Positions 26,299 to 46,046 of a stretch of 46,046 nucleotides of DNA are shown here, in pieces. How positions within the stretch are numbered: the first letter of the stretch is position 1; the number at the start of each line of letters is the position of its first letter. The notes under the pieces are model-generated. The model worked only from the letters and a program-made list of their open reading frames with translations, ran no database searches and was not told where the DNA came from. The translations under genes were made by a program, and so were the position numbers. Source of the stretch: Pseudomonadota bacterium (GTDB taxonomy: Bacteria > Pseudomonadota > Gammaproteobacteria > Burkholderiales > Burkholderiaceae_C); assembly GCA_020161215.1 (NCBI GenBank), contig JAIUOM010000018.1:1-46046 (forward strand). Reading direction: 5' to 3'.

Positions 26299-27309
26299 AT
26301 GGATACGCGGGTACTGGCAGACTCGACGGTTCGCATAGATTTGGGCGTTGCAGGATTGCCCGAAGAAGCCCGGGGCCTCTACCTCGGGGGGCTCTATGCG
26401 TTGAAGGCAGGGACTTCGTCCGCACGGTATCCGTTGCTGGTTGGCAGCGTGCTGGATGCCGTGCAGCGAGGCATTCCCTGCACTTTCGTGCTTCGCGGGC
26501 AGCCAGAGGTCTTCATCGCGCGCATGGAAGAGTCTGGGCGGATGGATCTGGCCGCGCTGGCGGCCGACCATCGCGTGCATTTTCTGCTGATGCAGGGCGA
26601 GTTCCAGAAAAAAGCGTTTCGTTCCGGCATGCCGGTGATGCTGGAGGAGCTGCAGTACCACGGCGTGCCGGAGGACAGCCTGGTGTTGTTCGACAATGCC
26701 GACGACATGCTGGCCGTGCACGACCAAGAGGCGATTTCCTCCCAGGTGGACGATATCGGGGCCTGGTGCAGGGCCAGGCGGGTGGCCTGCCTGATGGTGT
26801 TCACTCACCTGGAGGCATCGACCAGCGCCGCCATCAACAGCGTCATGGACACCTTGACCGGCGTGGCCAGTATCGATGCCGAGCGTGAGGGACTGGCTCT
26901 GAATTTCGAGTATTGGCGCTCCCCGGAGGGAGCGCTGCTGGCGCGTCAGTTCCGGTTGACGTCTCGCGCTTCGGGCCTCTACGAGGCCGCCCCCTGGACA
27001 CAAATGGACCCTGGGTTGCTGCAGACCCTGCTGGCTGCGTCTCGCCTGATTCCCCAGGCGCCGCCGGTGGGGGCTGGAGTGGCTACGGGGCCCATCGCGG
27101 CAGATGCTGAAGGTTCGTCGATGGCGTTGGATTCGTCGGTGCGGACCGAAGCGCATGCGGTGGTTTCGGCCGACGCGTCGGTGTTGCGCAGTGGTCGTCC
27201 GCGCGGCTGGGCCAGCGGACACGAAGGCCTGGGGCGTCGGCGTGGCGTCAGCGCGAAGGCCACCCGGAGCAAGCAGAGCGCCGACGAGCAACCGGCCAGT
27301 GGGGCATGA
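26299..27309 (+). CDS. BcsE-like N-terminal domain protein, first gene of the exopolysaccharide cluster
   Basis: The 336-residue cytoplasmic protein resembles the degenerate RecA-like N-terminal domain of the cellulose regulator BcsE. It has GGLYALKAG followed by a helix and VQRGIPCTFVLRG, the core strand VACLMVFTH, then a TLTGVASI block and LNFEYWRSPEGALLARQF at the end. BcsE binds c-di-GMP through a C-terminal GIL domain and recruits BcsQ/BcsR to the synthase. Here the GIL region is absent, and residues after about 240 are a low-complexity basic tail. The identification is by pattern only. Context (BcsQ, BcsB, BcsD downstream) supports it. Confidence 0.55.
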   Translation: MDTRVLADSTVRIDLGVAGLPEEARGLYLGGLYALKAGTSSARYPLLVGSVLDAVQRGIPCTFVLRGQPEVFIARMEESGRMDLAALAADHRVHFLLMQGEFQKKAFRSGMPVMLEELQYHGVPEDSLVLFDNADDMLAVHDQEAISSQVDDIGAWCRARRVACLMVFTHLEASTSAAINSVMDTLTGVASIDAEREGLALNFEYWRSPEGALLARQFRLTSRASGLYEAAPWTQMDPGLLQTLLAASRLIPQAPPVGAGVATGPIAADAEGSSMALDSSVRTEAHAVVSADASVLRSGRPRGWASGHEGLGRRRGVSAKATRSKQSADEQPASGA

Positions 27310-27427
27310 GGAGTGCTGTCACGATCTGTTCTCGCTTTTCGATGGAGATGGCGCGGCGGAGCGGCAGCTGGCGCGTTGCCCCCGGCACGCCAGCTCGGAT
27401 CGAGTGTGGACATGAACGTGGGCTGAA

Positions 27428-29176
27428 ATGGCGATGACAAACAACAAGGATCCCCGGGCTTCCAAGGGAAAAAAAGGAGAAATCGGCCTGCCGGGTAGGG
27501 CGGCTGGCGCAATCGTCTCCTGGGTCGGCGTGACCGCGCTGTGGGTGTGTCTGCCAGTGAGCGCTCAGGTGGAGCGCGTTGCGTCCGACATGCTGGTGTC
27601 GGGCGAGGCGTCGCAAGCCGCGCATGGGCTGAAGATACTGACCGAGCAGCCCTGGAATCACGATCTGCGGTTGCAGGTGGCGGACGATCTGCTGCGCTCG
27701 GGGCGTGTGGCGGAAGCCAGGGCCCAATTGGAGGCCCTCGAGGGCACGCCGTTAGCCGCCGAGGCCGCCAAGCGCCAGAGGGCGCTGCAGCGGGTGTTGC
27801 GTGAGCACCAGCTTCGCCCCCTGGCGGTGTTCACCGCCACGACGGATTTGGCTGGAACCAGTTTGTCGGAGCCGCGCCTCAGCACGCCATCAGGGGACCT
27901 TATTCCGTTGGCGCCATTTCGTTATGTGCCGTCTACGCCCGCGCCCGTCGAAACGCCTGCGGCACCTGGGGCACCTGCCGCGCCAAGCACCCCCTCCCGC
28001 AATCCCGAGCAGCAACAGCTCGTGACCATGGGGCAGGAGGGTGACTACTACGCACTGGGCACAGAGGGCCTGGCGCTGATGAAGAAGGAAAAGCTCGACG
28101 ATGATCTCAAGCTGAGCATTGCCAACGCGCTGGCCTGGACGGGTCGACTTGACGATGCCGACGACGTCTACAGCCAATTGTTATCAGGTCCGCGGGCCAA
28201 CGACGCGCGCATCGGTCTGGCGAACATGCACCGCTGGCAAGGCGAAGACTATTTGGCAGCGCCCTTGTACCGGGAGGTTCTGGCCACGCAACCGCAGAAC
28301 CCCGAGGCCATGAATGGTTTGCGTCTGACGGAACGCGAGCTGCGGGCGCGGACCCGGGTCACGGTCGGTGGAACCCACGATTCCGATGACGTGCGGCGCC
28401 GGTATGCCAGCATCAGCCATCAATGGCGTGAGCCCGGCGGCGCTCGGATCTGGGAGATCGAAGGCAGCGGCGTGCGGGACACGAACCCGACTTTTGGCAT
28501 TAATCAGCCTGAGGTGGCCTTGCGTTATTCCGCGCTGGACATTCCTTTCCAGCCCAGCGCAGAGGTCAGTGTCGACGACCATTCCGCGTACGCCAATGGC
28601 ACTGTGCGTCTTGGGCAGATGCCCATCTGGGTGACGGCGGGGCGGGTCAACTGGGGCCGCATGGCCATCAATCCCTTGGCGATCGATGCCCATCTGTGGG
28701 CCTGGCACATCGGCGCGCGTGCCACCGTCAACGGCGTGTACGGCAGTGCCTCGTTCCGTGCCGATGCCTACGGTATCTCGGACAGCAACAACGTGCAGAC
28801 CGCCAGCGTGCGCTACGTACCTTCGTTCCGTCCGCTGGGGCCAAACATCAAGCCCTTGATCGGCATCGACATGCGCAACGCCAAGTTCAGCTCACCCAGG
28901 TACTGGTCGCCTTCGGATGGTGGCTACGGCTTGGGTTACCTCGGTGTGTTGGGAGAGTGGAGCAGTGAGGACTGGAGTTTCTACGCCTCGATGCAGTACG
29001 GCTGGCGACTCTTTGGGGAAGCCGGTCCCAGCTGGAGCTTCTCGTCGGGCGGGCGTTACTGGGTCAACAACGACTGGGCGGTGGGCATGAACCTGTGGGC
29101 CATGAAGAGTCAGCGTGACTCCAGGTCCTACCGCGCCCAATCGTTCTCGGTGTACCTGGAGCGACGGTGGAACTGA
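27428..29176 (+). CDS. TPR and outer-membrane beta-barrel exopolysaccharide exporter (PgaA/BcsC-like role)
   Basis: The 582-residue product has a long basic N-terminus and then a signal peptide ending about residue 46 (LWVCLPVSAQ). TPR-like helices follow (LRSGRVAEARAQLEAL; NALAWTGRLDDADDVYSQLL; LYREVLATQPQNPEAMNGL), broken by a Pro/Ala linker near residues 175-195. From about residue 305 the sequence becomes alternating aromatic/polar strands, ending SVYLERRWN, typical of an outer-membrane barrel. PgaA and BcsC share this TPR-plus-barrel plan and carry the polymer across the outer membrane. It is about 10 nt overlapping with the glycosyltransferase gene, so the two are translationally coupled. 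Confidence 0.7.
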   Translation: MAMTNNKDPRASKGKKGEIGLPGRAAGAIVSWVGVTALWVCLPVSAQVERVASDMLVSGEASQAAHGLKILTEQPWNHDLRLQVADDLLRSGRVAEARAQLEALEGTPLAAEAAKRQRALQRVLREHQLRPLAVFTATTDLAGTSLSEPRLSTPSGDLIPLAPFRYVPSTPAPVETPAAPGAPAAPSTPSRNPEQQQLVTMGQEGDYYALGTEGLALMKKEKLDDDLKLSIANALAWTGRLDDADDVYSQLLSGPRANDARIGLANMHRWQGEDYLAAPLYREVLATQPQNPEAMNGLRLTERELRARTRVTVGGTHDSDDVRRRYASISHQWREPGGARIWEIEGSGVRDTNPTFGINQPEVALRYSALDIPFQPSAEVSVDDHSAYANGTVRLGQMPIWVTAGRVNWGRMAINPLAIDAHLWAWHIGARATVNGVYGSASFRADAYGISDSNNVQTASVRYVPSFRPLGPNIKPLIGIDMRNAKFSSPRYWSPSDGGYGLGYLGVLGEWSSEDWSFYASMQYGWRLFGEAGPSWSFSSGGRYWVNNDWAVGMNLWAMKSQRDSRSYRAQSFSVYLERRWN

Positions 29177-30516
29177 AACGGATCCGAGTCTACGTGCTTC
29201 TGGCTGTGCTGTTGGCCAGCTTGGCATTGCTGGCGGGCATGAGCTTTCAGTCGCTGCGCAACAATGAAGGCGCGTACCTGATTCTTTTCGAGAACGCCAT
29301 CCTGGCCAGCATCTCCACGTACCTGCTGTTCATCCTGGGTATCTTGCTGGTGCGCTACGCGATCCTGATGGTGTATTCGTTTCTCGACCATCTAGAATCG
29401 CTGCGCCGCATTGAGGCCGCTCAGGATATTCGCCCGGACGATCAACTGCCCATGGTGTCCTTGGTGGTGCCGGCATTCAATGAGGGGGTGGTGATCCAAC
29501 CTGCTCTTCGGTCCCTGCTCGAACTGGACTACCCGAATTATGAGGTCATCGTTGTGGACGATGGCTCCACGGACGACACCTACGACAAGGCCATGGCGGT
29601 GGCAGCGGAGTCGCAGCGTGTCCCGGTCAGGGTTTTGACCAAGCGCAATGGAGGCAAGGCCGAGGCGCTCAATACGGGCATGGCGGTCGCGCGGGGTGAA
29701 TTGATCCTCAACATGGATGGGGATACCAAGCTGTCCCGCAACACCTTGCGCGTGTGCGTGCCGTATTTCGACAATCCTCGCGTCGGGGCGGTGGCCGGCA
29801 ACGTGAAGGTGGTGAACCGCGAAAACCTGTGGTCGAAGATTCAAGCCCTCGAATATGTCGAAGGCTTGGCCATGGCACGCAAGGCCCAGAGTTTCGTACG
29901 GGCCGTGAACATCATCCCTGGCCCTCTGGGCATGTTCAGAAAATCCGTGCTGCGCGAGGTGGGTGGTTACGACCACGATACCTTCGCCGAGGATTGCGAC
30001 CTGACGCTGAAGATGCTGATGCGCGGCTGGCACGTGGTGTACGAGCACCGTGCCGTGGCTTGGGTCGAGACGCCAACCAGCCTGTTGAATCTGCTCAAAC
30101 AGCGCTACCGCTGGACGCGCGGCATTCTGCAGGCCACGACCAAGCACCGGTGGGCTCTGTGGCAGCCTGGACGCGCCGGGGTCAATTTTTTCATTCTCTG
30201 GTACATGCTGTTCGAGGGCGTGATCTGGCCTTTCACCAACGTGCTGGCCAACGTATTCTTTATTTACGCCAGTTTGCAGTATGGTTTGATCAGCCTGCTG
30301 TTTTATTGGTGGCTGCAGCTGACCATCCTCGATGTGGTGGCTGCGGGATATTGCGTCATCATTGAAGACGAAGATCCCGGATTGATCTTGCATTCATTGT
30401 TTTTTAGATTGTTTTATATCGTGATCATTGATATCGCCAAGGTTTTTGCCACCATCGAGGAGTGGCGAGGCCAATCCATGACCTGGGGCAAGTTGGAACG
30501 AGAAGGAAAACTCTGA
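29167..30516 (+). CDS. Processive family 2 glycosyltransferase, PgaC/HmsR-like polymer synthase
   Basis: The 449-residue inner-membrane enzyme has two N-terminal membrane helices (about residues 7-24 and 44-72), a cytoplasmic GT2 domain and three or four C-terminal helices. All processive motifs are present: DDG (131-133), DGD (184-186), AED (274-276) and QRYRW (312-316). The overall order resembles poly-beta-1,6-GlcNAc synthases and chitin-synthase-like NodC proteins, so a UDP-N-acetylhexosamine donor is likely. Donor and linkage cannot be proven from the sequence. The start is GTG at 29167, inside the exporter gene. This is the only fully equipped synthase in the cluster. Confidence 0.85.
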   Translation: MELKRIRVYVLLAVLLASLALLAGMSFQSLRNNEGAYLILFENAILASISTYLLFILGILLVRYAILMVYSFLDHLESLRRIEAAQDIRPDDQLPMVSLVVPAFNEGVVIQPALRSLLELDYPNYEVIVVDDGSTDDTYDKAMAVAAESQRVPVRVLTKRNGGKAEALNTGMAVARGELILNMDGDTKLSRNTLRVCVPYFDNPRVGAVAGNVKVVNRENLWSKIQALEYVEGLAMARKAQSFVRAVNIIPGPLGMFRKSVLREVGGYDHDTFAEDCDLTLKMLMRGWHVVYEHRAVAWVETPTSLLNLLKQRYRWTRGILQATTKHRWALWQPGRAGVNFFILWYMLFEGVIWPFTNVLANVFFIYASLQYGLISLLFYWWLQLTILDVVAAGYCVIIEDEDPGLILHSLFFRLFYIVIIDIAKVFATIEEWRGQSMTWGKLEREGKL

Positions 30517-30517
30517 T

Positions 30518-30739
30518 ATGGATTTGCTCTCTATTCTGGCGACAGTCATTCTGGCAACCACCATCGCCACGGTGTTGATTGGGGTTGCCGCCTATGCGGC
30601 TTTTAAATTGCGTGACAAACGCAGGCCTAAATCCAACCCAATGATGGGCGACGAGGCTTCAGCTGTGCGCGAACCGATCTTCTTTACTCGGTATGTTCCT
30701 CAGCCACGAACGCCAACGTCGGAAGGGTTCCTTGAGTGA
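30518..30739 (+). CDS. Small membrane protein, possible synthase partner
   Basis: The 73-residue product starts 2 nt after the glycosyltransferase stop. It has one strong membrane helix (about residues 5-31, LATVILATTIATVLIGVAAYAAF), then a basic stretch LRDKRRPK and a polar tail. Its position and size suggest a small partner subunit like PgaD or BcsF, but there is no clear sequence signature. The stop overlaps the GTG of the deacetylase gene (GTGA), so translation is coupled. I do not recognise a family. Confidence 0.65.
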   Translation: MDLLSILATVILATTIATVLIGVAAYAAFKLRDKRRPKSNPMMGDEASAVREPIFFTRYVPQPRTPTSEGFLE

Positions 30740-32607
30740 CACGGACTGCTGTCCAAGATGAACGTCTGCCAACCGCTCGTGCGCGTTGGGCGCAGCGTAT
30801 CGGGATTTATTTACCTTCGTATTTCATACTCGGAATTGCGATTCCGGCGTTGGTTTATGTGCTGGTGATGGCCCTGCTCGGGTGGCGGATACCGGTGTTT
30901 GGAAGCAGCGCCGCAGTCGCCTTCAGTGATTCTCAAGGTACTGTTTATTTGTTTGCTTCGAAATCGACACGAGATTACATGTCGCGGGTTGGTGGAAATT
31001 ACAACGTCGTGCTGGATCCATGGCGAGCCTATTTCGCAGAGCGCAAGCGTGGTTTTCGCGAGGTGGATGATCTGGGGAGCTTGCCGAATCAGGCCACGGG
31101 CAGTGTTCTGATTCTGCCGTCGACGGTAGCGCTGAGTGATTCCGACCGCAGCCGTATCCATGGCTTTCGTGCGCGGGGTGGCTCGGTGTTGGCAACGTGG
31201 GTGGCCGGTGCACGCAATGCCGCTGGAGATTGGCAGGGTTGGCAGTTTCTTGAGCAGTTGGGCGTTCAAGTGGTTGGTGAAATGACCGACAACGAGGAGC
31301 GTCAGCTGGTGCTGAACGGCGAATCGCCGGTGTCGCACACACAACCGGCCGGTCAACGCATCTGGATGAGCAAGGCCTCGGAGCCCCTGCTGCGCCTGCG
31401 AGGCGAGATGGTGGCGGGTCGCTTCACCAACTGGGCTCGCGTGGTGGATTCGGCTCGGCGTGCCGAAGGTGCGGTTCTTTATGCCGAAGGCTCCGCGACG
31501 GCGGGTCGCTCGGTGGTGTTTGGATTTGCTGAAACCACCTGGGAGTCGCATCCGGCGCCCATGTACCCGTTGATCGATGATGTGTTGCAGTGGCTTCGCC
31601 GCGAACCTGCCGTCGTTCGTGCCGCCTGGCCAGAAGGGAAGAAGGCGGCCAATGTCATTGAGATGGATACCGAAGAAGGTTTTCCAAATGCGTTGCGTTT
31701 GGTCGAGCAGCTGCGCCCGCAGGGCATCCCAGCGACCTTCTTTCTGTTGACCTCAGTGGCGCGTCAGCATCCCGAAATCGTGACTGAACTGGCGCGGGAC
31801 TACGAAATCGGCTACCACGGTGATGTGCACGAATCTTACAAAGGTCAGCCAGAAGCCGTTCAAGAGCGTCGTCTTGAAACCATGAAGGGGCAGTTGCAGT
31901 CGGTGTTGCCCGATATCCGGCAGGTGCTGGGCTTCCGTGCTCCGCTGGAAGGTTATGACGACACCACCCAGCGCCTGCTTCAAAAGGTGGGTATCCGGTA
32001 CCATGCAGCGGATCCAAACAGCACCGAAGGCAGGTTGCCATTTGTTTTCAAGATGGAAAACATCAAACCTGAGGACGCATTGATCGTATTACCGAGAACG
32101 CAGCGAGATGACATCAACTTCAACAAGGAAAAGCTTGATTTGGAGCAAATCAGTCAGGCCTTGATCGATGATTTTGATATGACTGCAGATACAGGGGCCT
32201 TGGGTTGGTTGAGTTTGCACAGTCAAAATTTTGGTGCGGATGCACCCTTGGCGCAAGCGTTGCCAAGCTATTTACAGCATCTCAAGCAACGCAATATGAA
32301 TATCTGGTACGCACAGGCCGGTCAGGTTGCGGCCTGGTGGCGCGAACGCGAACGATTCAAAGTCGGGGTAGATCAGACTGGTCGGCGGATCGATTTGAAT
32401 ATTACCGTGACACGTGGTAAACCGATTGAACGGGCCAACGTGATTGTGATGTTGCCGTTCAAGAACGCGGTATCGACCATTAGAAGTACCAAAGTGGGCA
32501 TTACCGATCCGATTACCATTCGGTTAGACCCTTTCCGGACCATGGTGAAATTTCCGCCGCTCGCTCCGGGGGATTACAGTTACCGAGTGACTTTTGATGT
32601 GAAATAG
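30736..32607 (+). CDS. Membrane-anchored CE4 polysaccharide deacetylase with an N-terminal amidotransferase-like domain
   Basis: The 623-residue product has one N-terminal helix (about 29-49). Residues about 60-290 form a domain with LILPSTVALSDSDRSRIHGFRARGGSVLATW, which looks like a ThuA or glutamine-amidotransferase-like fold. A NodB/CE4 domain follows, with metal and catalytic motifs D311-T-E-E, H361-G-D-V-H365 and R401-A-P-L-E-G. About 100 C-terminal residues form a beta-rich module. Such enzymes remove N-acetyl groups from GlcNAc polymers in the periplasm, as PgaB does for PNAG. The DTEE form of motif 1 is a variant of the usual TFDDG. The start is GTG, overlapping the previous gene by 4 nt. 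Confidence 0.82.
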   Translation: MTRTAVQDERLPTARARWAQRIGIYLPSYFILGIAIPALVYVLVMALLGWRIPVFGSSAAVAFSDSQGTVYLFASKSTRDYMSRVGGNYNVVLDPWRAYFAERKRGFREVDDLGSLPNQATGSVLILPSTVALSDSDRSRIHGFRARGGSVLATWVAGARNAAGDWQGWQFLEQLGVQVVGEMTDNEERQLVLNGESPVSHTQPAGQRIWMSKASEPLLRLRGEMVAGRFTNWARVVDSARRAEGAVLYAEGSATAGRSVVFGFAETTWESHPAPMYPLIDDVLQWLRREPAVVRAAWPEGKKAANVIEMDTEEGFPNALRLVEQLRPQGIPATFFLLTSVARQHPEIVTELARDYEIGYHGDVHESYKGQPEAVQERRLETMKGQLQSVLPDIRQVLGFRAPLEGYDDTTQRLLQKVGIRYHAADPNSTEGRLPFVFKMENIKPEDALIVLPRTQRDDINFNKEKLDLEQISQALIDDFDMTADTGALGWLSLHSQNFGADAPLAQALPSYLQHLKQRNMNIWYAQAGQVAAWWRERERFKVGVDQTGRRIDLNITVTRGKPIERANVIVMLPFKNAVSTIRSTKVGITDPITIRLDPFRTMVKFPPLAPGDYSYRVTFDVK

Positions 32608-32660: not shown

Positions 32661-33131
32661 ATGACAATGAATGTTGAGGATTTGAAGGAATATTTCCGGA
32701 TTCAACAGTCTTCGCTGCAGTGGGGGCCGGTTTTGGCAGCGATGGGCGCGGAGCTCAGCGCGCAGTCCGATGCCGAGACCTTGCGCCAACTGTTTGCCCG
32801 GGTGGGTCGGCGAATGGCCGACGACGTCATGGACTCGGAAAAAGACATTCGCACACTGCGGGAGTTGGTGGAACTGCTCAACGACCTATGGATGCGGGTG
32901 AACTGGGGCTGGTTGGACATCAAGGAGGACGGCGGGCGGCTGGAGGTGTCGCATTTCTGCGCGCCGCTGACAGATGCTTTTGGTGTCGAGTCTCTGGGGT
33001 GGAGCGTGGGTTTGCTGGAGGGTTTTTATGAGCGGGTGTTCAAACGTCTGGGGGCCGACGAATCCGCCGCACTGAGAGCTCAGCAGCCCATCGGCGATGG
33101 CGCCGTGCTTCGCTTTCAGCTGACATATTGA
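32661..33131 (+). CDS. bcsD: Cellulose synthase subunit D-like protein (BcsD/AcsD family)
   Basis: The 156-residue soluble protein matches the BcsD pattern: an N-terminal YFRIQQSSLQW, the helix LRQLFARVGRRMADDV, a middle block LNDLWMRVNWGWLDIKEDGGRLEVSH with conserved aromatics, and GFYERVFKRLGA near the end. In Komagataeibacter AcsD forms a periplasmic octamer whose channels guide glucan chains into crystalline fibres. No signal peptide is seen, as in other BcsD proteins. It lies 53 nt after the deacetylase gene. Its presence suggests that several nascent chains are packed together. Confidence 0.8.
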   Translation: MTMNVEDLKEYFRIQQSSLQWGPVLAAMGAELSAQSDAETLRQLFARVGRRMADDVMDSEKDIRTLRELVELLNDLWMRVNWGWLDIKEDGGRLEVSHFCAPLTDAFGVESLGWSVGLLEGFYERVFKRLGADESAALRAQQPIGDGAVLRFQLTY

Positions 33132-33153: not shown

Positions 33154-34197
33154 GTGAGTACTTCGAACGAATATGGTTTATTTGGCGCTCCTCAGGGAGC
33201 GGGGAACGATGACGCGCCAGCGTCGGAATTCGGTGGGCCCGGCACGGGTGGTTCAGATTCGGAATGGACGTTGTTGCGCTCCGTCAACGCGCGCCACGGC
33301 GTGACGGTGCAACCGCTGCCCGAAAAGGACAAGTCGCAAGCATGGCGCACCCCGACGGTTTCGTCGGGTGAACCAGCGAATACCATCGTGTCCTCGCGTG
33401 TGTCCGAGGAGTCCACTCGGATGGCGACGGGGCTTGCGATGATGGCCAAGCGCGGACTCCGCGCGCAGCATGCGGTTGCGCGGGCTCCAGCCGAACCTAC
33501 GCCTGCCGAGCAGAGGGACGCGCCTCTTCCCACCCGGACGGTGGAGCCTCGGCATCTGGCGGCGCGGAGGCCGTTGCCGGCAACGGCCTCCGAATTTCCC
33601 CTCGCGACACCAGAGTCGGTGACCCAGATGGTCGCATCGGCCCCGCGCGAGGAACCGGTGGTGACTGGGTTTGTGCCGGCGAAATCTGAACCGGTCCAGG
33701 ATATGGCTCGGGTCGAGTCTGATGATCGAGCGCGAGCGTTGGTGCCGGCGCAGGAGCCTCATGTCGATCGAGAGGGGCGGCCAAGCATCTCTCCCGAGCA
33801 TGTGGTGAGTCCTCCTGTGGAGACACAGGAGTCGACAGTGGAGGCGCGGCGTCCGGTTGGCGCGGACGAGCCCTTCGGGAGTGGTGGGGTAGGGGGCGGT
33901 GCTTCGGTTCGGACCGAGGTGAAGCCGAAGGCTAACCCGTCCGATGCGATGAACCAGGGCGGTCTGCAGCAGCTGTTCTCTAGAGATCGAAGCTTGGAGC
34001 AGGGGCCGCTTGGTGAGGTATTGGAGTCGGATGCCGTGAGCATTCCACCGGCGCAAGAAAGTCGCGTGCCGGAAGCGTCGGATCAACTGCAGGATGTCTT
34101 CATGCGTTTGCGTCGTTCGACGCGCCCGCAGGAGCCGCAGCCTGCCTCGGAGGCGCCACGGCGCCACGGATTCTTGAGTCGATTGGGTAAGCGATGA
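33154..34197 (+). CDS. Low-complexity BcsO/BcsP-like accessory protein
   Basis: The 347-residue product is mostly disordered, rich in Pro, Ala, Glu, Ser and Arg. A short ordered segment sits near the start (SEWTLLRSVNARHG) and another at the end (LQDVFMRLRRS, then RRHGFLSRLGKR). Pro-rich proteins with such terminal motifs sit directly before bcsQ in several cellulose clusters and are called BcsO or BcsP. They are thought to organise BcsD or BcsQ inside the cell. The start is a GTG at 33154 and the stop overlaps the next ATG (ATGA). Confidence 0.6.
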   Translation: MSTSNEYGLFGAPQGAGNDDAPASEFGGPGTGGSDSEWTLLRSVNARHGVTVQPLPEKDKSQAWRTPTVSSGEPANTIVSSRVSEESTRMATGLAMMAKRGLRAQHAVARAPAEPTPAEQRDAPLPTRTVEPRHLAARRPLPATASEFPLATPESVTQMVASAPREEPVVTGFVPAKSEPVQDMARVESDDRARALVPAQEPHVDREGRPSISPEHVVSPPVETQESTVEARRPVGADEPFGSGGVGGGASVRTEVKPKANPSDAMNQGGLQQLFSRDRSLEQGPLGEVLESDAVSIPPAQESRVPEASDQLQDVFMRLRRSTRPQEPQPASEAPRRHGFLSRLGKR

Positions 34198-34961
34198 AGC
34201 TCGTGGGTGTCATTTCACCAAAAGGCGGCGTGGGTAAGACCACGGTGGTGGCCAATCTGGCTGGCAGTCTGACCAGGCTGGCCGGGGTCGGACAGGTTTC
34301 GGTTTTGGACCTGGATCCTCAAAATGGACTGGGTTGGCATTTCGGACAGGTGTTGGAGCTGGATCAAACCGGTGTTTGTCGCGCCTCGGTAACGGGACGT
34401 TCGCCCTGGTCCGCCCGGGTGGAAACGCAGCTTGGCGTCGACTATCTGCCGTATGGCTGGGCTGCTGAGAGCGAGCGTGAGGCGTTCGAACAACTGTTGA
34501 CGTCCGATATCGACTGGCTCGGCCGCCTGGCCACGGAGCGCCCGGACACCGACACGGAGGTGTGTGTGGTGGACACGGCCCCCGGAGATTCGGCCTACCT
34601 GCGTCAGGTGCTGCATCACGCCGACATGGTGGTTACCGTGCTGCTCTCTGATGGAGGCTCCTACGCGACGATGACCGATCTGGAGCAGTATCTGTCCGAC
34701 ATGCTGGTGGTGCGTCCCGGTGTCCCGGTGCTGCAGGTCATCAACCAGGTGGATCGCTCCGAGCGCCTCAGCCGGGATGTGACCGCGGCGATGACGGCCT
34801 CGCTCGAAGAGGCCTCGGCGTACGTCGTCGTGCACCGGGACGAGGCCGTGGCCGAGGCGCTGGCATGCCAGAGTTTGGTGGCCCAGCACGCGCCGCACGG
34901 GCAACCCAGCCAGGACTTTGACCGTCTCGCGGCGGCGGTGTGGCGACAACTGGCCTCATGA
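34194..34961 (+). CDS. bcsQ: BcsQ-type ParA/MinD-family ATPase, first copy
   Basis: The 255-residue protein has the deviant Walker A KGGVGKT (residues 10-16), DLDPQNGLGWHFG and the switch VVDTAPGDSAYLRQVL, matching BcsQ (YhjQ). BcsQ locates the cellulose synthase at the cell pole and is needed for synthesis in E. coli. A central INQVDRSERLSRDV block precedes a C-terminal VHRDEAVAEALA motif, also typical. The gene overlaps the BcsO/P-like gene by 4 nt and the BcsA-like gene by 1 to about 20 nt. A second paralogue is encoded at 40622-41371. Confidence 0.85.
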   Translation: MKLVGVISPKGGVGKTTVVANLAGSLTRLAGVGQVSVLDLDPQNGLGWHFGQVLELDQTGVCRASVTGRSPWSARVETQLGVDYLPYGWAAESEREAFEQLLTSDIDWLGRLATERPDTDTEVCVVDTAPGDSAYLRQVLHHADMVVTVLLSDGGSYATMTDLEQYLSDMLVVRPGVPVLQVINQVDRSERLSRDVTAAMTASLEEASAYVVVHRDEAVAEALACQSLVAQHAPHGQPSQDFDRLAAAVWRQLAS

Positions 34962-39405: not shown

Positions 39406-40572
39406 ATGAAGTGGTGGCGGATACGCGTGTGCTTGTGCTTATGGGGTGCGCTGTGCGCGCTGCCCGGGTGGGCCCTGGACGACGATCTGGCCACCGAGCA
39501 GATGATCGCCGAGGCCCGGCAGTGGGTCACGCGCGGGCGTGAGGATTTGGCCGCCGAGGTCTGGACGCGCTTGCTGGCCACGCGGCCCCAGCACCCCATG
39601 GCGCTGGTGCAACTGGGTCTGATCCAAGCCCGCGCGGGGCGGCTGGACGCCGCCAGGGGGCTGCTTGAGCGCGCCCAGCGGCTACCCAAGCCCCCTGCCG
39701 ATCTGGATACCTTGAAGCGCGCGCTGGCACCTTCTCAATCTGGGGCCGCGAATGCGGTGGCGGCCAACTCCCCGGCGCCGGCACCCGCACCGCAGTCACC
39801 AGCTCGAAAGATCGCCGATGAGGCCGTGAGTCGTCCGGTGGCGGAACCGCCCTCGCGTTCGCGGCAGGCGCAGGCACCCAAGGAACCTGACAAGCCCGAA
39901 AGGACCGCGCGGTCGGCGGAGAAAAAGGGCAGCGCCAGCAAAGCCGAATCCGACCAAGTGGCCACCACCAGCAAGCGCCGCGAAGCGCTGCCGAAAACCT
40001 CTTCGCGCGAGTCCGCCGCTGCCGAGGCGCCGCCGGCGCCGGATACCGTCCGCGCCCGCACGAGCGCCACCGGTCCTGGGCGATCGGAAGACCGGTCCGC
40101 ATCGGCCAGGGCAGCGGCAGCCACTGATCCACTCGCCGAACTGAAATCCGGTTCCGCCGTCGAGGAGCGCTGGGGCGATACCCGGCAGAAGCTGGAGCAA
40201 CTGGTGCGTGCCCAACCCAACGACCCGCGCTACCTGCAGGCGCTGGCCGTGCATCTGACCCATCGGGAAGCTTCGCGCCGCGAAGGTGTGCGTCTGCTCG
40301 ATTCCCTGACCCAGCGCGGCGTGGCCAGCCCGGAGGCACGGCAGGCTTGGCGGCAGGCCTTGCTCTCGCTTTCTCCGCGGCAGGGCGACGACAAATTGTT
40401 CGCCAGTTACCTGGCCCGGTACACCGACGTCGACGTGGCGGCGCGCGCCCGCATGCTTCAGGCCAGCGAGACGCGGCCTGCCACAACCCGGCTGCTTGAG
40501 AGCCGCACGCACGAATCCGGAGCCACGGAAGCAGGCCTCGCCCCTGCGGGTAAGTCCGTAGCCACATGGTGA
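39406..40572 (+). CDS. Periplasmic TPR protein, BcsC N-terminal-like
   Basis: The 388-residue product has a signal peptide (about residues 1-23, CALPGWALD). A TPR pair follows (EARQWVTRGREDLAAEVWTRLLATRPQHPMALVQLGLIQARAGRLDAARGLLERAQ, about residues 34-90). A low-complexity linker rich in Ala, Pro, Glu, Lys and Arg fills about 105-250, and more TPR-like helices come after it (VRAQPNDPRYLQALAVHL). This is the start of BcsC, which normally continues into many TPRs and an outer-membrane barrel. Here it stops after 388 residues with no barrel. The barrel function may be supplied by the exporter at 27428-29176. It begins 12 nt after bcsB. Confidence 0.65.
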   Translation: MKWWRIRVCLCLWGALCALPGWALDDDLATEQMIAEARQWVTRGREDLAAEVWTRLLATRPQHPMALVQLGLIQARAGRLDAARGLLERAQRLPKPPADLDTLKRALAPSQSGAANAVAANSPAPAPAPQSPARKIADEAVSRPVAEPPSRSRQAQAPKEPDKPERTARSAEKKGSASKAESDQVATTSKRREALPKTSSRESAAAEAPPAPDTVRARTSATGPGRSEDRSASARAAAATDPLAELKSGSAVEERWGDTRQKLEQLVRAQPNDPRYLQALAVHLTHREASRREGVRLLDSLTQRGVASPEARQAWRQALLSLSPRQGDDKLFASYLARYTDVDVAARARMLQASETRPATTRLLESRTHESGATEAGLAPAGKSVATW

Positions 40573-40621
40573 AGCACCGGTTGCCTTGGTGCACGCAGAC
40601 AAAACGACAATAGGGAGGTTC

Positions 40622-41371
40622 ATGCACATCATTTCATTCGTATCGGGCAAGGGCGGCAGTGGCAAGACCACGCTGACCGCCAACGTTGCCGTGGCGCTGG
40701 CGCGGCGCGGCCATTCCGTGGTGGCCATTGATCTGGACCCGCAGAACGCCCTGGGTCTGCACCTGGGACTGGAGGCCACGGAAGAGGGCGGTCTGGCGCG
40801 TGAAGGCATTCGGCGCAGCGCCATGTTCGAAAGTCCGTTCGGGGTGCACTTCATTCCCTTCGGGCGCCTGACCACCGAGGAATTGCCCGAGTTCCACGCC
40901 TTTCTTCGCGACCACCCCGACTGGCTGGCGCAGAGCTTGGCCGCCTTGCCGCGCTCGGAGTTCCGTTTCGTCCTGCTCGACACCCCACCTGGGCCCACGC
41001 CCTACCTGCGACAAGCGCTGCATGCCGCGCACCGGGTGCTGGTGTGTGGGTTGGCCGACGCCGCGTCCTACGCCACGTTGCCGCAGATGATGGCCCTGGT
41101 CGAGGAGTACACGCACGACCGACCGCAGTTCCTGGGCGCGCACCCGATCATCAACCAGATGCCCGTGAACGGGCGCCTGGGGCACCAGGTTCGCTCGGCC
41201 GTGGCGACCGAATACGGTGCCACGCTGGCGCCGGTCTCGGTCCACCGCGACCCGCGGGTGGCCCATGCGCTGGCCAGCGAGCAACCCGTGGTCGAATACG
41301 ATCCCGCCGCCATGGCTTCACTGGACATCGAGTACTTGGCCGACTGGTTGATTGATCTCGCCGATCTCTGA
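40622..41371 (+). CDS. BcsQ-like ParA/MinD-family ATPase, second copy
   Basis: The 249-residue protein has Walker A GKGGSGKTT (K10), IDLDPQNALGLHLGL, VLLDTPPGPTPYLRQAL and INQMPVNGRLGHQV, matching BcsQ, but it is clearly diverged from the copy at 34194-34961. GGGAGG lies just upstream of the ATG at 40622; an in-frame ATG at 40586 lacks such a site. A second BcsQ in one operon is unusual. The two may form a heterodimer or localise different parts of the machine, such as the BcsA/B scaffold and the acetylation module. Confidence 0.82.
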   Translation: MHIISFVSGKGGSGKTTLTANVAVALARRGHSVVAIDLDPQNALGLHLGLEATEEGGLAREGIRRSAMFESPFGVHFIPFGRLTTEELPEFHAFLRDHPDWLAQSLAALPRSEFRFVLLDTPPGPTPYLRQALHAAHRVLVCGLADAASYATLPQMMALVEEYTHDRPQFLGAHPIINQMPVNGRLGHQVRSAVATEYGATLAPVSVHRDPRVAHALASEQPVVEYDPAAMASLDIEYLADWLIDLADL

Positions 41372-41409
41372 TCGACGATCGAGCGCATTCACCCTTCGAC
41401 CCATTGGTT

Positions 41410-42597
41410 ATGCGATTGAATGCGCGACGACTCCTGAATGGCCTGGCCGGGCTGCTGCTGCTGGGGTTGCTCGCGTGCACGCAGGTGGCCTCGCCACCTC
41501 CCCCAGGACAGACACGCCCGGTGGCCTGGGGTTACGTGGCCTGGTGGGTGCCGCAAGCCTGGATCAACGCACCCTTGAACCGCATGGAACGGGTGCTGTT
41601 CTTCGAAATTCGGATGGAACGCGACGGCTCCGTTCGAGACATGCACGGCTGGCCGGGGGCGTTTCCCGAGTTGCGTGCCCTGGTGCAGCAACATCGGATC
41701 CCGCTGGACCTGACGCTGACCCTGCACGATCTGGGGGACTTCAACAGCCTGTTTCGTTCCGCCGAGGCCATTGCCCGTTTTCTGGGCGTGGCCGAACGTC
41801 TGGCCAGCGATCCAGGCGTGAGCGGCGTGCAGTTGGACGTTGAAATTTACGAGCATCCGGATCAAAACGCCCTGGTGGCGTTTCGGCGTTTCACCGCCGA
41901 GCTGGCGGACCGGCTGGCCGCCATGAAGCCCCCGAGAGTCCTGTCGGTGTTTCTGCCGATCGGTGCCGAGCAGCAGATTTACGACCGAGACAGCCTGCGG
42001 CGCGTCGGCTACGCGGTGCTGCAGGGCTACGATGCGCACTGGCAAGGCAGCCCCACGTCGGGCCCGATAGCGCCCCTGACGGGACCGTGGCGCATGACCT
42101 GGGGCAAGGCCCTGACCGAGGCGGCGCGGCTGGGGCTGGACAAAAAGCGCATCCTGATGGGGTACCCGCTGTACGGCTACCAGTGGTCCATGCGCCAGCG
42201 CGGCCTGTACGCGCAGACTTCTGGTCCAGGGGAAGTCGTCACCCTGGCTCCCCAGCTGCAGCGTCCTGGCAACAAACCCACCGACAACGTGCGCGACAAG
42301 ATCAAGCAGCACGGCTGCGGCCGTGACCCCTACATCGCCTCGTCGTTCTACGAATACCAGAAGCCGGACGGCCAGTGGGTGACCGGGTGGTTCGAAGGCC
42401 CGGCCGATCTGGACCGCAAACATCGGTTTCTGATGGACCAGGGCGTGCGTGGGACGGCGTTTTTTGCACTGGGGTACGACAGCTATGTGCTGGTCGATCG
42501 TTTTGTTGGGCGCAATGATCGGCTGGCCGCCGGTGGGCCCCTGGATGTAGGAGGGAACGAAACGTGCAGTGGATGCGGCCTGGGGTGTGGGTCGTGA
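41410..42597 (+). CDS. GH18-like lipoprotein (putative amino-sugar polymer hydrolase)
   Basis: The 395-residue product has a lipoprotein signal (LLGLLACTQ, C23) and a TIM-barrel-like order with WGYVAWWVPQAW at strand 1. VSGVQLDVEIYEH aligns with the GH18 active-site strand DGxDxDxE. D144 and E146 occupy the last Asp and the catalytic Glu; the first two Asp are replaced by Ser and Gln. Later blocks VLQGYDAHWQG and ILMGYPLYGYQW fit GH18 substrate strands. GH18 enzymes cleave beta-linked GlcNAc polymers with help from the N-acetyl group, unlike the GH8 BcsZ of cellulose operons. It may trim the polymer or only bind it. The ATG at 41410 was chosen. Confidence 0.72.
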   Translation: MRLNARRLLNGLAGLLLLGLLACTQVASPPPPGQTRPVAWGYVAWWVPQAWINAPLNRMERVLFFEIRMERDGSVRDMHGWPGAFPELRALVQQHRIPLDLTLTLHDLGDFNSLFRSAEAIARFLGVAERLASDPGVSGVQLDVEIYEHPDQNALVAFRRFTAELADRLAAMKPPRVLSVFLPIGAEQQIYDRDSLRRVGYAVLQGYDAHWQGSPTSGPIAPLTGPWRMTWGKALTEAARLGLDKKRILMGYPLYGYQWSMRQRGLYAQTSGPGEVVTLAPQLQRPGNKPTDNVRDKIKQHGCGRDPYIASSFYEYQKPDGQWVTGWFEGPADLDRKHRFLMDQGVRGTAFFALGYDSYVLVDRFVGRNDRLAAGGPLDVGGNETCSGCGLGCGS

Positions 42598-42692
42598 AAT
42601 GAGGGTGAAGCCGATCCCGCGGCGGCTTGAGGCCGATCGGTCGGGGCGGTTTCGGATGGGGCCTGGTGGGGCTCCTGGGCGGAGGAGTCTCC

Positions 42693-44078
42693 ATGGTTTT
42701 CAGTTCAAACATATTTCTATTTGCATTTCTTCCGCTGTTTCTGCTGTGCTACTACCTGACGCCGTGGCGTGGGAAGTCGGCGCTGATCCTGTTGTTCAGC
42801 TATGCGTTCTACGCCTGGTGGCGACCCGATTTCCTGGCCTTGCTGGTGGGCGTCACGGTGGGCAGCTACTGGTTTGCCATCGCCATCGACAACCAACCCG
42901 ACGCGGCCCGGCGCAAGACCCTGCTGTCCATTGGCGTCACGCTGAACCTGCTGACCCTGGGGTACTTCAAGTACGCCAATTTCGGCATGGACAGCCTGAA
43001 CGTCGTGCTGGCGTCCGTCGGGCTGCAGCCGATCGAGTTCATGCGCGTGCTGCTGCCGATCGGCTTGTCGTTCTACATCTTTCACGCCATCAGCTACCTG
43101 GTCGATATTTACCGGCGCGAGGCACCCCCGGCGCGCGACCTGATCGACTTCGCCGCGTTCATCGCGCTGTTTCCGCACCTGGTTGCCGGCCCGGTGTTGC
43201 GCTACCACCTGCTGGCCGAGCAGTTTCGTTCGCGCGTGCACTCGCCCAGCCGTTTCGCGCGCGGCTGCGCCTTGTTCATGCTGGGGTTTTGCCAGAAGGT
43301 GCTGATTGCCGACGTCGTCGCGCCCTTGGCGGACGCGGCCTTCGCCTTGCAGGCCCCCACCGCCGGCGACGCCTGGGTGGGCGCCATCGCCTACACCATC
43401 CAGCTGTTCTTCGATTTCAGCGGCTACTCCACCATGGCCATCGGCCTGGCGCTGATGATCGGGTTCATCTTTCCCGAGAACTTCAACGATCCGTACGTCT
43501 CCGCGTCGATCACCGAGTTCTGGAAGCGTTGGCATATGTCGTTGTCCAACTGGCTGCGTGAGTACCTGTACATCTCGCTGGGCGGCAACCGCAAGGGTGT
43601 GCGCCGGACCTACATCAACCTGTTTCTGACCATGCTGTTGGGTGGGCTGTGGCACGGAGCCAACTGGACTTTCGTCGTCTGGGGGGCCTGGCATGGGGGT
43701 ATCCTGGCCATCGAGCGCTACCTGGAGCAACGCTTTGGGCCCTCGCGCCTGCCCCACGTGGTGCGTGTCGCCAAGACCATGCTGCTGGTGATGATCGGCT
43801 GGGTGCTTTTCCGGGCCGTGGATCTGACCGCCGCCTTGCGCATGTTCGGCGGCATGGGGGGGCTGAACGGCTGGGGTTTCAGCCCGCTGTTTGCCTGGCA
43901 GCTCTCGCCCGACCGCATCGGCGTGATGCTGCTGGCCATCGTGCTGGTGTACATCTCACCGTGGCTGAAGGCCCGCCATGGCTGGTGGTTGCGCTACCTG
44001 CTGATACCGCTGTTCCTGTGGGCCGTGGCGACCTTGTCGTCGCAGTCGTTCACGCCGTTCCTGTACTTCCAGTTCTGA
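42693..44078 (+). CDS. MBOAT-family O-acetyltransferase, AlgI/WssH-like
   Basis: The 461-residue multi-pass protein shows the AlgI pattern: MVFSSNIFLFAFLPLFLLCYYL at the start, YFKYANF, LPIGLSFYIFHAISYLVDIYR, LFPHLVAGPVLRY, FDFSGYSTMAIGLALMIGF, WHMSLSNWLREYLYISLGGNRKG, and LLGGLWHGANWTFVVWG with H321 as the catalytic histidine. It passes acetyl groups from a cytoplasmic donor to a periplasmic partner, as in alginate or acetylated cellulose synthesis. GGAGGAG precedes the ATG at 42693. About 95 nt separate it from the GH18-like gene. The next gene encodes the expected partner. Confidence 0.92.
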   Translation: MVFSSNIFLFAFLPLFLLCYYLTPWRGKSALILLFSYAFYAWWRPDFLALLVGVTVGSYWFAIAIDNQPDAARRKTLLSIGVTLNLLTLGYFKYANFGMDSLNVVLASVGLQPIEFMRVLLPIGLSFYIFHAISYLVDIYRREAPPARDLIDFAAFIALFPHLVAGPVLRYHLLAEQFRSRVHSPSRFARGCALFMLGFCQKVLIADVVAPLADAAFALQAPTAGDAWVGAIAYTIQLFFDFSGYSTMAIGLALMIGFIFPENFNDPYVSASITEFWKRWHMSLSNWLREYLYISLGGNRKGVRRTYINLFLTMLLGGLWHGANWTFVVWGAWHGGILAIERYLEQRFGPSRLPHVVRVAKTMLLVMIGWVLFRAVDLTAALRMFGGMGGLNGWGFSPLFAWQLSPDRIGVMLLAIVLVYISPWLKARHGWWLRYLLIPLFLWAVATLSSQSFTPFLYFQF

Positions 44079-44088: not shown

Positions 44089-45231
44089 ATGTCCGATCAA
44101 GCGTTGTACCAAGAACCCCCAGGACCCGCCCGCCCGCACACCTTTCTGGCGACCATCGTGTTCGTGCTGGCCGTGCTGGCCGGCGTGAGCCAGGTGCTGG
44201 GCGCGCTGCGCGACCCATCCAAGCTGCAGGTGCCCTGGAACTGGTCCGATTTCTGGCAAGGCCACACCACGCAAAAGCTGGAAAAGCAAATCGACCATCA
44301 CATGCCGGCGCGCGAACGGATCATCGCCTGGGCCAACAGCGCCCGCTACCTCATCATCCACGGCGGTGGTGAGCAGGTGCGGGTGGGGCGCGACGACTGG
44401 TTGTTCCTGACCGAGGAGTTGCGCTACGCCAAGGTCAAGGGCCAGCCGCTGCAGGCGCGTGCCGACCTGCTGCGCGACGCCAGCCAGGCGTTGGCCGGGC
44501 AGGGCGTGCGGCTGCTGGTGGCACTGGTTCCCGACAAGGCCCGGGTGCAGGAGTCCTACATGGCGTTCGGACACTACCCCGACGCCAACCGGCCCCGCTA
44601 CACCGAGGGCCTAGAGGCCCTGCGCCAACGCCAGGTCGCGGTGGTGGATTTGCTCACCCCCATGGCCAAGGGCGCCACGGCCGAGCCGGTGTACTACCGC
44701 AGCGACACGCACTGGAACCAGCGCGGCGCCGAGATCGCGGCGCAGGAGATCGCGCGCACGGCGCAGGGCATGCGCCTGCAGCTCGACCCGGCCAGCTTCG
44801 AAACCACCCTGGCCGCCGCCCCGGTCGAGCGGGCCGGCGATCTGATCCGCATGATGGGTCTGGAGCACATGCCCAACGCGCTGCGCCCGACGCCCGACCG
44901 CGAGGCGCCGGCCACCACCCGCAAGACCAGTGCATCGGGGGGCGGGGGCTTGCTGGGCGACAGCGCGGTGCCCGTGACCCTGGTCGGCACCTCGTACTCC
45001 TTGCGCGGCAATTTTCATGGCTACCTGCAGCAAGCCCTGCAGGCCGAGGTGCTGAACACCGCCAAGGACGGCGGTGGCTTCCTGCAAGCCATGACCGACT
45101 ATCTCAAGGACGAATCCTTCCGCAGTGCCAAACCCAAGTTGCTGATCTGGGAATTGCCGGAGCGCTTCCTCAAGGACCCGCTCGACAAGGAGCCCGACTG
45201 GCTGCGTCAGGTTGGCCTGACCAGCCGCTGA
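44089..45231 (+). CDS. SGNH-type polysaccharide O-acetyltransferase, AlgJ/AlgX-like
   Basis: The 380-residue product has an N-terminal anchor (about residues 18-38). It then shows the AlgJ/AlgX catalytic layout: VGRDDWLFLTEEL near residue 100, the D206-T-H208 motif in YYRSDTHWNQRG, and a serine block LVGTSYS (300-304). WELPERFL near the C-terminus is also typical. It completes O-acetylation of the polymer in the periplasm with acetyl groups supplied by the MBOAT protein 10 nt upstream. The pair resembles AlgI/AlgJ of alginate and WssH/WssI of acetylated cellulose. Confidence 0.88.
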   Translation: MSDQALYQEPPGPARPHTFLATIVFVLAVLAGVSQVLGALRDPSKLQVPWNWSDFWQGHTTQKLEKQIDHHMPARERIIAWANSARYLIIHGGGEQVRVGRDDWLFLTEELRYAKVKGQPLQARADLLRDASQALAGQGVRLLVALVPDKARVQESYMAFGHYPDANRPRYTEGLEALRQRQVAVVDLLTPMAKGATAEPVYYRSDTHWNQRGAEIAAQEIARTAQGMRLQLDPASFETTLAAAPVERAGDLIRMMGLEHMPNALRPTPDREAPATTRKTSASGGGGLLGDSAVPVTLVGTSYSLRGNFHGYLQQALQAEVLNTAKDGGGFLQAMTDYLKDESFRSAKPKLLIWELPERFLKDPLDKEPDWLRQVGLTSR

Positions 45232-45241
45232 AAGGTGCGCC

Positions 45242-46033
45242 ATGTTTTCCTGCCTGCTTACTTCGCCGACACTTGATCCAACCCCGTCGCCAGAGGCGCG
45301 GCCCCCTGGTCGCCTCCTGGTCGCTGGTGTCCTGCTGAGCCTCGGCTTGGCGCTGGCGGGTTGCGCGGGTGTGTCCGGCCAGCGCGGCGCCAACGGTGCC
45401 ACCGGCGCTGCATCCAACGGCGACAGCAAGCCGGCCCCGGTCGGCGTGCTGGCCGTGCCCAAACCGGGTTTCTTCGTGCCGGCCGAGGCCTTCGACAAAA
45501 ACGGCAGGCTGGTGCAGCCGATCGTGGCCGACAACCTGGCCCCGACCGCGTCCGCGGCGGCGCAAGCCCAGTTCAAGCGCGAGGTGCTGGTCTACGACGG
45601 CTCGGCCAACCGCTCTTATTTTTCCGGCGGCGGGCTCGACGGGCGCTTCAGCGCCCAGTTCTGGGTTGGTCTTCTGGCCAAGTACAAGTTCCGTTACCGC
45701 GCCATCAGCGACGTCGAGGACATCGAATCGGCCGCGCCCTCGGTGCTGGTGCTGCCTTCCACCGTGGTGTTGAACGCGCGCGAACGCCAGGCCATCGTCA
45801 ACTTCCGCGCGCGCGGAGGCAGCGTGGTGGCGACCTGGCTGACCGGGGTGCGCGATGAGGGCGGGGCCTGGCGCGGCTTCGGTTTCATGCAGTCGGCGCT
45901 GGGCGCCAAGGTCGAGGGCTACACCGGGCCGACCGACCAGGTGCGCTACCTCAACATCGACGGCGACACACCGCTGGCGCACGGCCTGCCGGCCGGCGTG
46001 CGGGTCTGGACGGACCGGCCCAAGGAGTGGTAG
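45242..46033 (+). CDS. Lipoprotein paralogous to the deacetylase N-terminal domain, ended by a TAG
   Basis: The 263-residue product has a lipoprotein signal (LALAGC, C41). Its part from about residue 120 is clearly homologous to residues about 70-210 of the CE4 deacetylase at 30736-32607: VLVLPSTVVLNARERQAI against VLILPSTVALSDSDRSRI, and FRARGGSVVATWLTG against FRARGGSVLATWVAG. It stops at TAG (46031-46033), where the paralogue continues with EPLL and this sequence continues PMLL in the same frame. It could be a complete short protein, or the first part of a longer gene broken by GAG-to-TAG. The window ends 13 nt later. Confidence 0.72.
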   Translation: MFSCLLTSPTLDPTPSPEARPPGRLLVAGVLLSLGLALAGCAGVSGQRGANGATGAASNGDSKPAPVGVLAVPKPGFFVPAEAFDKNGRLVQPIVADNLAPTASAAAQAQFKREVLVYDGSANRSYFSGGGLDGRFSAQFWVGLLAKYKFRYRAISDVEDIESAAPSVLVLPSTVVLNARERQAIVNFRARGGSVVATWLTGVRDEGGAWRGFGFMQSALGAKVEGYTGPTDQVRYLNIDGDTPLAHGLPAGVRVWTDRPKEW

Positions 46034-46046
46034 CCCATGCTCCTGT

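Follow-up and report, generated by a model that had tools for sequence, protein, structure and literature searches.

Why would a bacterium keep most of a cellulose operon around a cellulose synthase that has lost its catalytic motifs? This question is raised by a 46,046-nucleotide contig of a Pseudomonadota bacterium (JAIUOM010000018.1, assembly GCA_020161215.1; C43 in our numbering), which was analyzed over its entire length and is called the window below. It belongs to a draft genome of 4.52 Mb in 250 contigs that is 98% complete. Sixteen plus-strand genes at 26299-46033, running up to the end of the contig, join a degenerate BcsA and its Bcs partners to an intact PgaC-like glycosyltransferase of family 2 (GT2), accompanied by a putative exporter and polymer-modifying enzymes. 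We consider it probable that this GT2 makes a non-cellulose polymer, which would be deacetylated, O-acetylated, and exported on a recycled Bcs scaffold.

The spacing between the genes ranges from small overlaps to 118 bp. An earlier note, made from the sequence alone, had described a tightly spaced plus-strand cluster with all of these gene types, and the open frames, the gaps, and the domain matches agree with it. The genes are, in order:

26299..27309, plus strand: N-terminal domain only of BcsE, 336 aa (PF10995, 2.6e-15, profile positions 5-208 of 513)
27428..29176, plus strand: TPR protein with a 16-strand outer-membrane barrel, predicted exporter of the PgaA/BcsC/PelB type (AlphaFold2, Foldseek)
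29167..30516, plus strand: PgaC-like processive GT2 with intact catalytic motifs (PF13641, 1.4e-37; PgaC_IcaA, 223 bits)
30518..30739, plus strand: TM73, a 73-aa protein with a single transmembrane (TM) segment and a conserved tail, probable GT2 partner (GT2 neighbor; Pfam negative)
30736..32607, plus strand: CE4-type deacetylase with a membrane anchor and a long N-terminal part (PF01522, 2e-12)
32661..33131, plus strand: BcsD (PF03500, 6.1e-15)
33154..34197, plus strand: BcsP-like disordered linker (place between BcsD and BcsQ; N-terminal motif of relatives)
34194..34961, plus strand: BcsQ, first copy (TIGR03371, 168 bits, cut-off 158)
34961..37057, plus strand: degenerate BcsA, 705 aa, longest frame from 34940 (motifs, tree, dN/dS, TIGR03030 in two pieces)
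37081..39393, plus strand: BcsB, probable ATG at 37081, longest frame from 36937 (PF03170, 4e-199)
39406..40572, plus strand: apparent N-terminal TPR remnant of BcsC without barrel (BCSC_C not matched)
40586..41371, plus strand: BcsQ, second copy (TIGR03371, 196 bits, cut-off 158)
41404..42597, plus strand: GH18-like lipoprotein (PF00704, 5.2e-14)
42627..44078, plus strand: MBOAT protein, AlgI-like (PF03062, 8.3e-33)
44089..45231, plus strand: AlgX/AlgJ-like SGNH O-acetyltransferase (PF16822, 8.7e-76)
45242..46033, plus strand: N-terminal part of a CE4-type lipoprotein, interrupted by the contig end (47% identity to the G121 homologue)

We scanned an alignment of the GT2 over the GTDB species genomes and obtained 63 loci (genomes compared, loci, and contigs are labeled G, L, and C, respectively). 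The genome search for co-occurrence that the earlier note had proposed found these genes elsewhere, either in unchanged order or as blocks that occur together, and the degenerate BcsA always with the GT2 (20/20, of which 17 were retrieved through the GT2). Because the genes recur in this way, the cluster is not a chance assembly.

BcsA-like proteins were gathered from the GT2-bearing genomes, namely 37 with named loci plus G000, G121, G130, and G564 (L056 and L080, of 39 listed loci, were left out). The resulting motif table holds 45 sequences, 20 degenerate and 25 with catalytic motifs. The window BcsA matches the CelA model in two pieces only, 11-271 and 408-655, with 137 bits (cut-off 699), while the intact relative L158, taken as a control, scored 884 bits over positions 6-709. 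The window protein is without DxD, TED, and QxxRW. None of the 20 degenerate proteins retains the gating loop, TED, or QxxRW, and in each of them, the window's included, NFP stands in place of the PilZ signature DxSxxG. The catalytic motifs are present in the other 25 sequences and also in three Undibacterium BcsA-BcsB fusions. These fusions (L166, L168, and L169, from three species) are intact frames of 1510-1517 aa in genomes that also harbor the GT2 cassette.

In a tree of 60 BcsA proteins, for which the program flagged long branches, the degenerate sequences form one clade (20 versus 40 rows, support 100). The same split is recovered with BcsB (18 versus 22 rows, support 100), in a tree containing one very long intact row. 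The description of this BcsA as degenerate in the earlier note thus holds for a 20-member clade, within which divergence is large: the window protein is 25% identical to degenerate G121 and 20% to degenerate G130, and 25% to intact G564.

Degenerate BcsA does not behave like a pseudogene. By the Nei-Gojobori method, the ratio of nonsynonymous to synonymous substitution (dN/dS) was 0.155-0.258 in six pairs of degenerate BcsA versus 0.054-0.141 in five intact pairs, values to be read with several dS above 1, near saturation. For BcsB of the six degenerate pairs it was 0.066-0.122, one pair being not computable. Judged by these ratios, degenerate BcsA is under purifying selection; its sequence drifts fast while its frame is maintained. 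A pseudogene or an assembly artefact was ruled out by the 20 open relatives together with dN/dS. The glycosyltransferase (GT) region, which is the top region among nine intact BcsA with 84% conservation, falls to 32% among the degenerate ones, although most of its length is retained (mean gap, 14%). Their best-conserved region is instead the N terminus through TM4 (38%). According to PMC11470070, BcsA of E. coli receives the BcsB anchor in a groove formed by TM1-3, and its GT-PilZ side is where BcsQ and BcsR (BcsP in models) dock.

The partners were retained. Degenerate operons keep BcsD, the BcsP-like linker, BcsQ, and BcsB, and species carrying both operon forms allow identities to be compared between them. 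For G735/G730, identity in the degenerate versus the intact operon was 61 versus 84% for BcsA, 81 versus 71% for BcsB, 82 versus 75% for the first BcsQ, and 83 versus 68% for the second. The corresponding values were 53 versus 81%, 78 versus 73%, 75 versus 68%, and 83 versus 70% for G720/G735 and 71 versus 92%, 89 versus 88%, 95 versus 93%, and 92 versus 84% for G735/G731. G731/G728 gave 92 versus 96% for BcsA, 96 versus 97% for BcsB, and 99 versus 97% for the first BcsQ. In the degenerate operon, BcsA was therefore less conserved in 4/4 pairs, while the first BcsQ was more identical in 4/4, the second in 3/3, and BcsB in 3/4. These identities indicate that constraint dropped on BcsA in all four pairs and that the partners are equally or more conserved, clearly so for BcsB in two of the four. 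The dN/dS differences of the second BcsQ likewise point one way in 3/3 pairs.

Other components were lost. GH8 (BcsZ) was found in 0/20 degenerate operons (L172 ends inside BcsB, before the GH8 place), versus 17/28 intact loci and 9/9 of the nearest intact operons. The search profiles were built from one to four sequences each, and that for GH8 from a single one, so that the 11/28 intact loci left unmatched may truly lack the gene or not. A negative by this profile carries less weight than the result of searching the window's own genome with Pfam, where neither PF01270 (GH8) nor PF05420 (BCSC_C, the BcsC barrel) was matched. BCSC_C was absent in 12/13 genomes with degenerate BcsA only, and it was present in 6/7 genomes with both forms and in 14/15 searched intact-only genomes (G729 and G743 were left out). 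At the BcsC position, the nine nearest intact operons have frames of 1260-1444 aa with BCSC_C. Degenerate loci have a frame of 162-392 aa (10 loci), none by profile (6), or the contig end (2), and two Noviherbaspirillum loci have frames of 901 and 925 aa. Neither these two long frames nor the TPR protein of the window matched BCSC_C; the latter sits where intact operons have BcsC, as expected for the BcsC-N-like protein named in the earlier note.

BcsE is also shortened in the window. Its relatives are frames of 545-741 aa, 30/31 of which carry RxGD in their C-terminal part, and in G121 and G564 the profile is matched over nearly its full length. That the window has lost both the PilZ signature and the RxGD-bearing part of BcsE suggests weaker control by cyclic di-GMP there.

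Per genome, we counted 13 with degenerate BcsA only, 7 with both forms, 17 with intact BcsA only, and 4 in which no BcsA was found. Cultured carriers of the degenerate form include Noviherbaspirillum galbum 17J57-3, in which intact BcsA was not found, and N. malthae CC-AFH3, which has both forms. The window's genome has one BcsB, and intact BcsA was not found in it. Weak extra matches to the BcsA profile were without QxxRW and TED in G000 (C196) and G714 (C74); a third, in G716 (C232), has QVTRW and AED and is, with 509 aa, too short for BcsA.

All 20 genomes with degenerate BcsA carry an intact PgaC-like GT2. In a sample drawn blind to GT2, 299 genomes of the window's family, degenerate BcsA occurred in 3 and the GT2 in 6, and all 3 were within the 6, an overlap expected about 5 times in a million by simple counting that ignores kinship. 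The 27 other BcsA loci of this sample retain TED and QxxRW. Of the remaining three GT2 genomes, one, G012, encodes intact BcsA (L028); the other two are drafts, G083 at 85% and G291 at 58% completeness. In G121, about 60 kb separate the GT2 from the degenerate operon, and both persist. Finally, the GT2 tree groups the 20 degenerate-BcsA genomes and 3 without a BcsA found in one clade (support 99), outside which lie all 17 intact-only genomes. On these sequence comparisons, genetic coupling of the GT2 and the degenerate Bcs set is well supported, and we infer physical coupling of their proteins. The proposal of the earlier note that a PgaC-like enzyme works on reused cellulose machinery fits the degenerate clade, the intact GT2, their co-occurrence, and the matching clades, as well as the failure to detect intact BcsA, the BcsC barrel, or GH8 in the window's genome.

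Could the two gene sets simply be neighbors? That a GT2/CE4/barrel cassette and a decaying cellulose operon on its way out are independent systems side by side is the best of the alternatives, yet we regard it as unlikely. It would explain why GT2-TM73 pairs occur in other phyla with no Bcs genes nearby, why cassette and operon are separated in G121, and why dN/dS of degenerate BcsA is two to three times that of BcsB in the same pairs. A decaying operon is nevertheless a misfit with 20 open full-length frames, a common NFP motif, and dN/dS well below 1; the partners are conserved as in intact operons, and one GT2 clade matches one BcsA clade. It is considerably less probable still that the degenerate Bcs set aids a cellulose synthase still present, through regulation or stoichiometry, and is unrelated to the GT2: such a helper suits the 7/20 genomes with both forms, but in the 13 others, including the window's, no intact BcsA was found, and 12 of these lack BCSC_C as well. 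Least probable of all is a pseudo-BcsA with some remaining glycosyltransferase activity that joins the GT2 in making or capping the polymer. The retained length of the GT region and a DxD pattern in six proteins speak for it; against it, no degenerate protein keeps TED, gate, or QxxRW, 14 including the window's have lost DxD, and conservation of the region has dropped from 84% to 32%.

Several observations weigh against a recycled Bcs scaffold serving the GT2. Seventeen of the 20 degenerate-BcsA genomes were themselves retrieved via the GT2, and many compared genomes are drafts. The matching GT2 and BcsA clades could partly follow host phylogeny. The four both-operon pairs share species, and between operon forms the dN/dS of BcsB and the first BcsQ shows small differences of mixed direction. 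The DxD pattern remains in G130, L142, L150, L170, L182, and L183; G710, with degenerate BcsA only, gave a partial BCSC_C match; and coexistence with intact BcsA concerns 7 of the 20 genomes. No Bcs genes were detected near the distant GT2-TM73 loci in Campylobacterales and others. An AlphaFold model of degenerate BcsA, computed from two rows, reached a mean predicted local distance difference test score (pLDDT) of 43.9 and was not used. Lastly, the PgaC_IcaA score of the GT2, 223 bits, lies under the TIGR03937 cut-off of 422.

The GT2 belongs to the PgaC/NodC/hyaluronan-synthase class. In agreement with the complete PgaC-like enzyme announced in the earlier note, DxD, ED, and QRYRW are intact in the window, as in 63/63 rows. 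The closer loci (41/63, at least 56% identity) are nearly all from betaproteobacteria and include Rhodoferax, Polaromonas, Hydrogenophaga, Noviherbaspirillum, Undibacterium, Gallionella, and Polynucleobacter, along with Silanimonas. BcsE, the TPR barrel, GT2, TM73, and CE4 are on one strand in 30 of these 41, and contig ends interrupt some of the others. Seventeen relatives with the cassette have intact BcsA only, for example Gallionella sp. STB_51 (G564), in addition to the seven with both forms; with intact BcsA in the same genome as the cassette, the GT2 and the cellulose synthase could therefore make two polymers there. On a contig filed as Moraxellaceae (L057), the GT2 is separated by a tree distance of zero from that of a Comamonadaceae bin (L052), so that the contig was probably misbinned.

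TM73 adjoins the GT2 in 61/63 loci and has no Pfam match; it was rejected as a BcsF homologue, as E. coli BcsF scored -0.4 bits against the family profile. The 22 distant loci (42-52% identity), from Campylobacterales, Myxococcota, Acidobacteria, Lentisphaeria, and others, are mostly reduced to GT2-TM73, often with CE4, and a TPR protein lies upstream in the four that were inspected. With TM73 in 21/22 and CE4 in most, these loci (L089-L108, L110, and L111) represent a wider GT2 family with a small membrane partner.

At an E value of 1e-60, the GT2 was absent from 24/24 other sampled genomes of the window's genus, several of them incomplete, and the guanine-plus-cytosine (G+C) content is 0.57-0.61 at 28-34 kb versus about 0.68 at 16-26 kb. 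Its absence from relatives in the genus and the lower G+C therefore suggest that the GT2 region of the window was acquired. Plasmid carriage was considered and dropped, the GT2 being unmatched at the same E value among 72,556 plasmid records.

The exporter was modeled by AlphaFold2 as helices together with 16 strands (pLDDT 80.6; 347/582 residues at 90 or above), as the TPR/barrel exporter of the earlier note would require. Its best solved Foldseek matches were BcsC (9b8a), PelBC (9h80), and 4y25, titled polysaccharide outer membrane secretin, which we take to be PgaA. On this model, the TPR protein of the cassette is predicted to be an outer-membrane exporter. It scored 25 bits with the PgaA equivalog TIGR03939, under the cut-off of 366.65.

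The deacetylase and the O-acetylation enzymes retain the residues of their active sites, in line with the modifications foreseen in the earlier note. In CE4, the motif Asp and two His are conserved in 33-34 of 34 rows; both motif His of MBOAT are conserved in 14/14, and so are the Asp-x-His and Ser motifs of the AlgX-type protein. Contig C208 encodes AlgF and another AlgX, and with them the alginate-type O-acetylation module (MBOAT AlgI, AlgX/J, and AlgF) is complete in the window's genome. The GH18 proteins of these operons retain D-x-E in 13/13 rows. In the window and its 12 relatives, a Gln stands at the upstream Asp of DxDxE in 10/13 rows, and GH18 catalysis is possibly altered.

Two gene assignments of the earlier note stood in part. 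The deacetylase-domain lipoprotein at the end does belong to a family of CE4-type lipoproteins of 655-725 aa; it is no complete deacetylase, as the frame at 45242-46033 stops 13 bases short of the contig end and corresponds, with 47% identity, to residues 95-243 of the 655-aa G121 homologue, that is, to an N-terminal part. Joining it to contig C208 was rejected, as there is no sequence overlap and the frame beside AlgF is unrelated by profiles. In L045:453-4171 and relatives, the family of this interrupted gene, a second CE4-type lipoprotein family, adjoins AlgF and a second AlgX, often divergent from BcsE; the window has only its start. The linker, proposed to be BcsO/P-like, has 11% Pro and fits BcsP by its place between BcsD and BcsQ; its BcsR-like N-terminal motif is clear in most relatives and eroded in the window. 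It was judged by place and motif, no BcsP family model being among the libraries searched.

No Rfam family reached its gathering score within the window, and a promoter scan of 25900-26400 gave a single weak plus-strand site (0.6 expected by chance). Upstream of the cluster, an AcrB-type transporter family is found in two separate frames (4604-5116, profile positions 2-112, and 5639-8872, best stretch 268-1020) flanking a stretch of lower G+C. A gene of the tannase/feruloyl esterase family (20735-22471; PF07519, 1.2e-131) is followed by a MarR-type regulator (22519-23016).

How does this cluster compare with known systems? The Pga system for poly-N-acetylglucosamine (PNAG) comprises the GT2 PgaC, a small membrane partner, a CE4 deacetylase, and a TPR-barrel exporter. 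The window has counterparts of all four; unlike Pga, it falls short of the NCBIfam cut-offs for PgaA and PgaC, does not match the PgaB model, and has its cassette coupled to Bcs genes. With the type I/hybrid Bcs systems of betaproteobacteria (PMC11470070), it shares BcsD, a putative BcsP-like linker, BcsQ, and the BcsA-BcsB order, while BcsE is as in type II Bcs. It differs from type I/hybrid systems by degenerate BcsA catalysis and PilZ, absence of BcsZ, reduction of BcsC to a TPR head, and the attached GT2 cassette. Alginate-type O-acetylation next to Bcs-type genes recalls Wss acetylated cellulose of pseudomonads, which has a working cellulose synthase (PMC10302187 and PMC6478803); none was found in the window's genome. 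The Orphan proteins of pseudomonads are likewise BcsA-related with a proposed non-cellulose role. They are proposed to act as cyclic beta-glucan synthases (PMC10237404), in contrast to the window BcsA, which lies within a bcs operon and has lost its catalytic motifs. By its sequence, the window cluster qualifies neither as a working cellulose system nor as PgaA/PgaC. The statement of the earlier note that no described system has this gene set agrees with the literature searched, in which neither the set nor the degenerate BcsA clade was found, an earlier mention elsewhere being possible. Overall, the interpretation given there is partly supported.

We thus return to a GT2 product on a recycled Bcs scaffold. 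The polymer is probably an N-acetyl-hexosamine chain, because a deacetylase and GH18 accompany a GT2 of the PgaC/NodC/hyaluronan-synthase class. More specifically, and tentatively, since we rate it as somewhat short of an even chance, the dead cellulose synthase may be retained as a structural subunit, with BcsB and the BcsD-BcsP-BcsQ cytoskeleton organizing and guiding a chitosan- or PNAG-like O-acetylated fiber that another synthase makes.

The starting point would have been a BcsP-BcsD-BcsQ-type operon in betaproteobacteria already holding the GT2 cassette. A form that lost BcsA catalysis and the PilZ signature, dropped BcsZ, and reduced BcsC to its TPR head would have arisen once, keeping as scaffold BcsB, BcsD, the BcsP-like linker, the two BcsQ copies, and the BcsA membrane shell. 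GT2 and TM73 would synthesize the chain and pass it across the inner membrane, and BcsB, anchored by pseudo-BcsA, would lead it through the periplasm together with the TPR proteins. CE4 would N-deacetylate the polymer, the AlgI/AlgX(/AlgF) set would O-acetylate it, GH18 would trim it, and the cassette's own TPR barrel would export it; we infer the order of these steps, as we do the evolutionary route. In the cytoplasm, BcsD-BcsP-BcsQ, docked on pseudo-BcsA, could bring the export sites into line, a role already suggested in cellulose systems.

Species with both operons and species with the degenerate one only offer a natural experiment on the roles of Bcs accessory proteins beyond cellulose polymerization. 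The prediction is that BcsB, BcsD, and BcsQ are able to serve a non-cellulose chain, and it thereby becomes testable whether the Bcs scaffold has a role independent of the synthase. A new matrix biopolymer may be indicated, and these genomes warn that a bcs operon does not imply cellulose.

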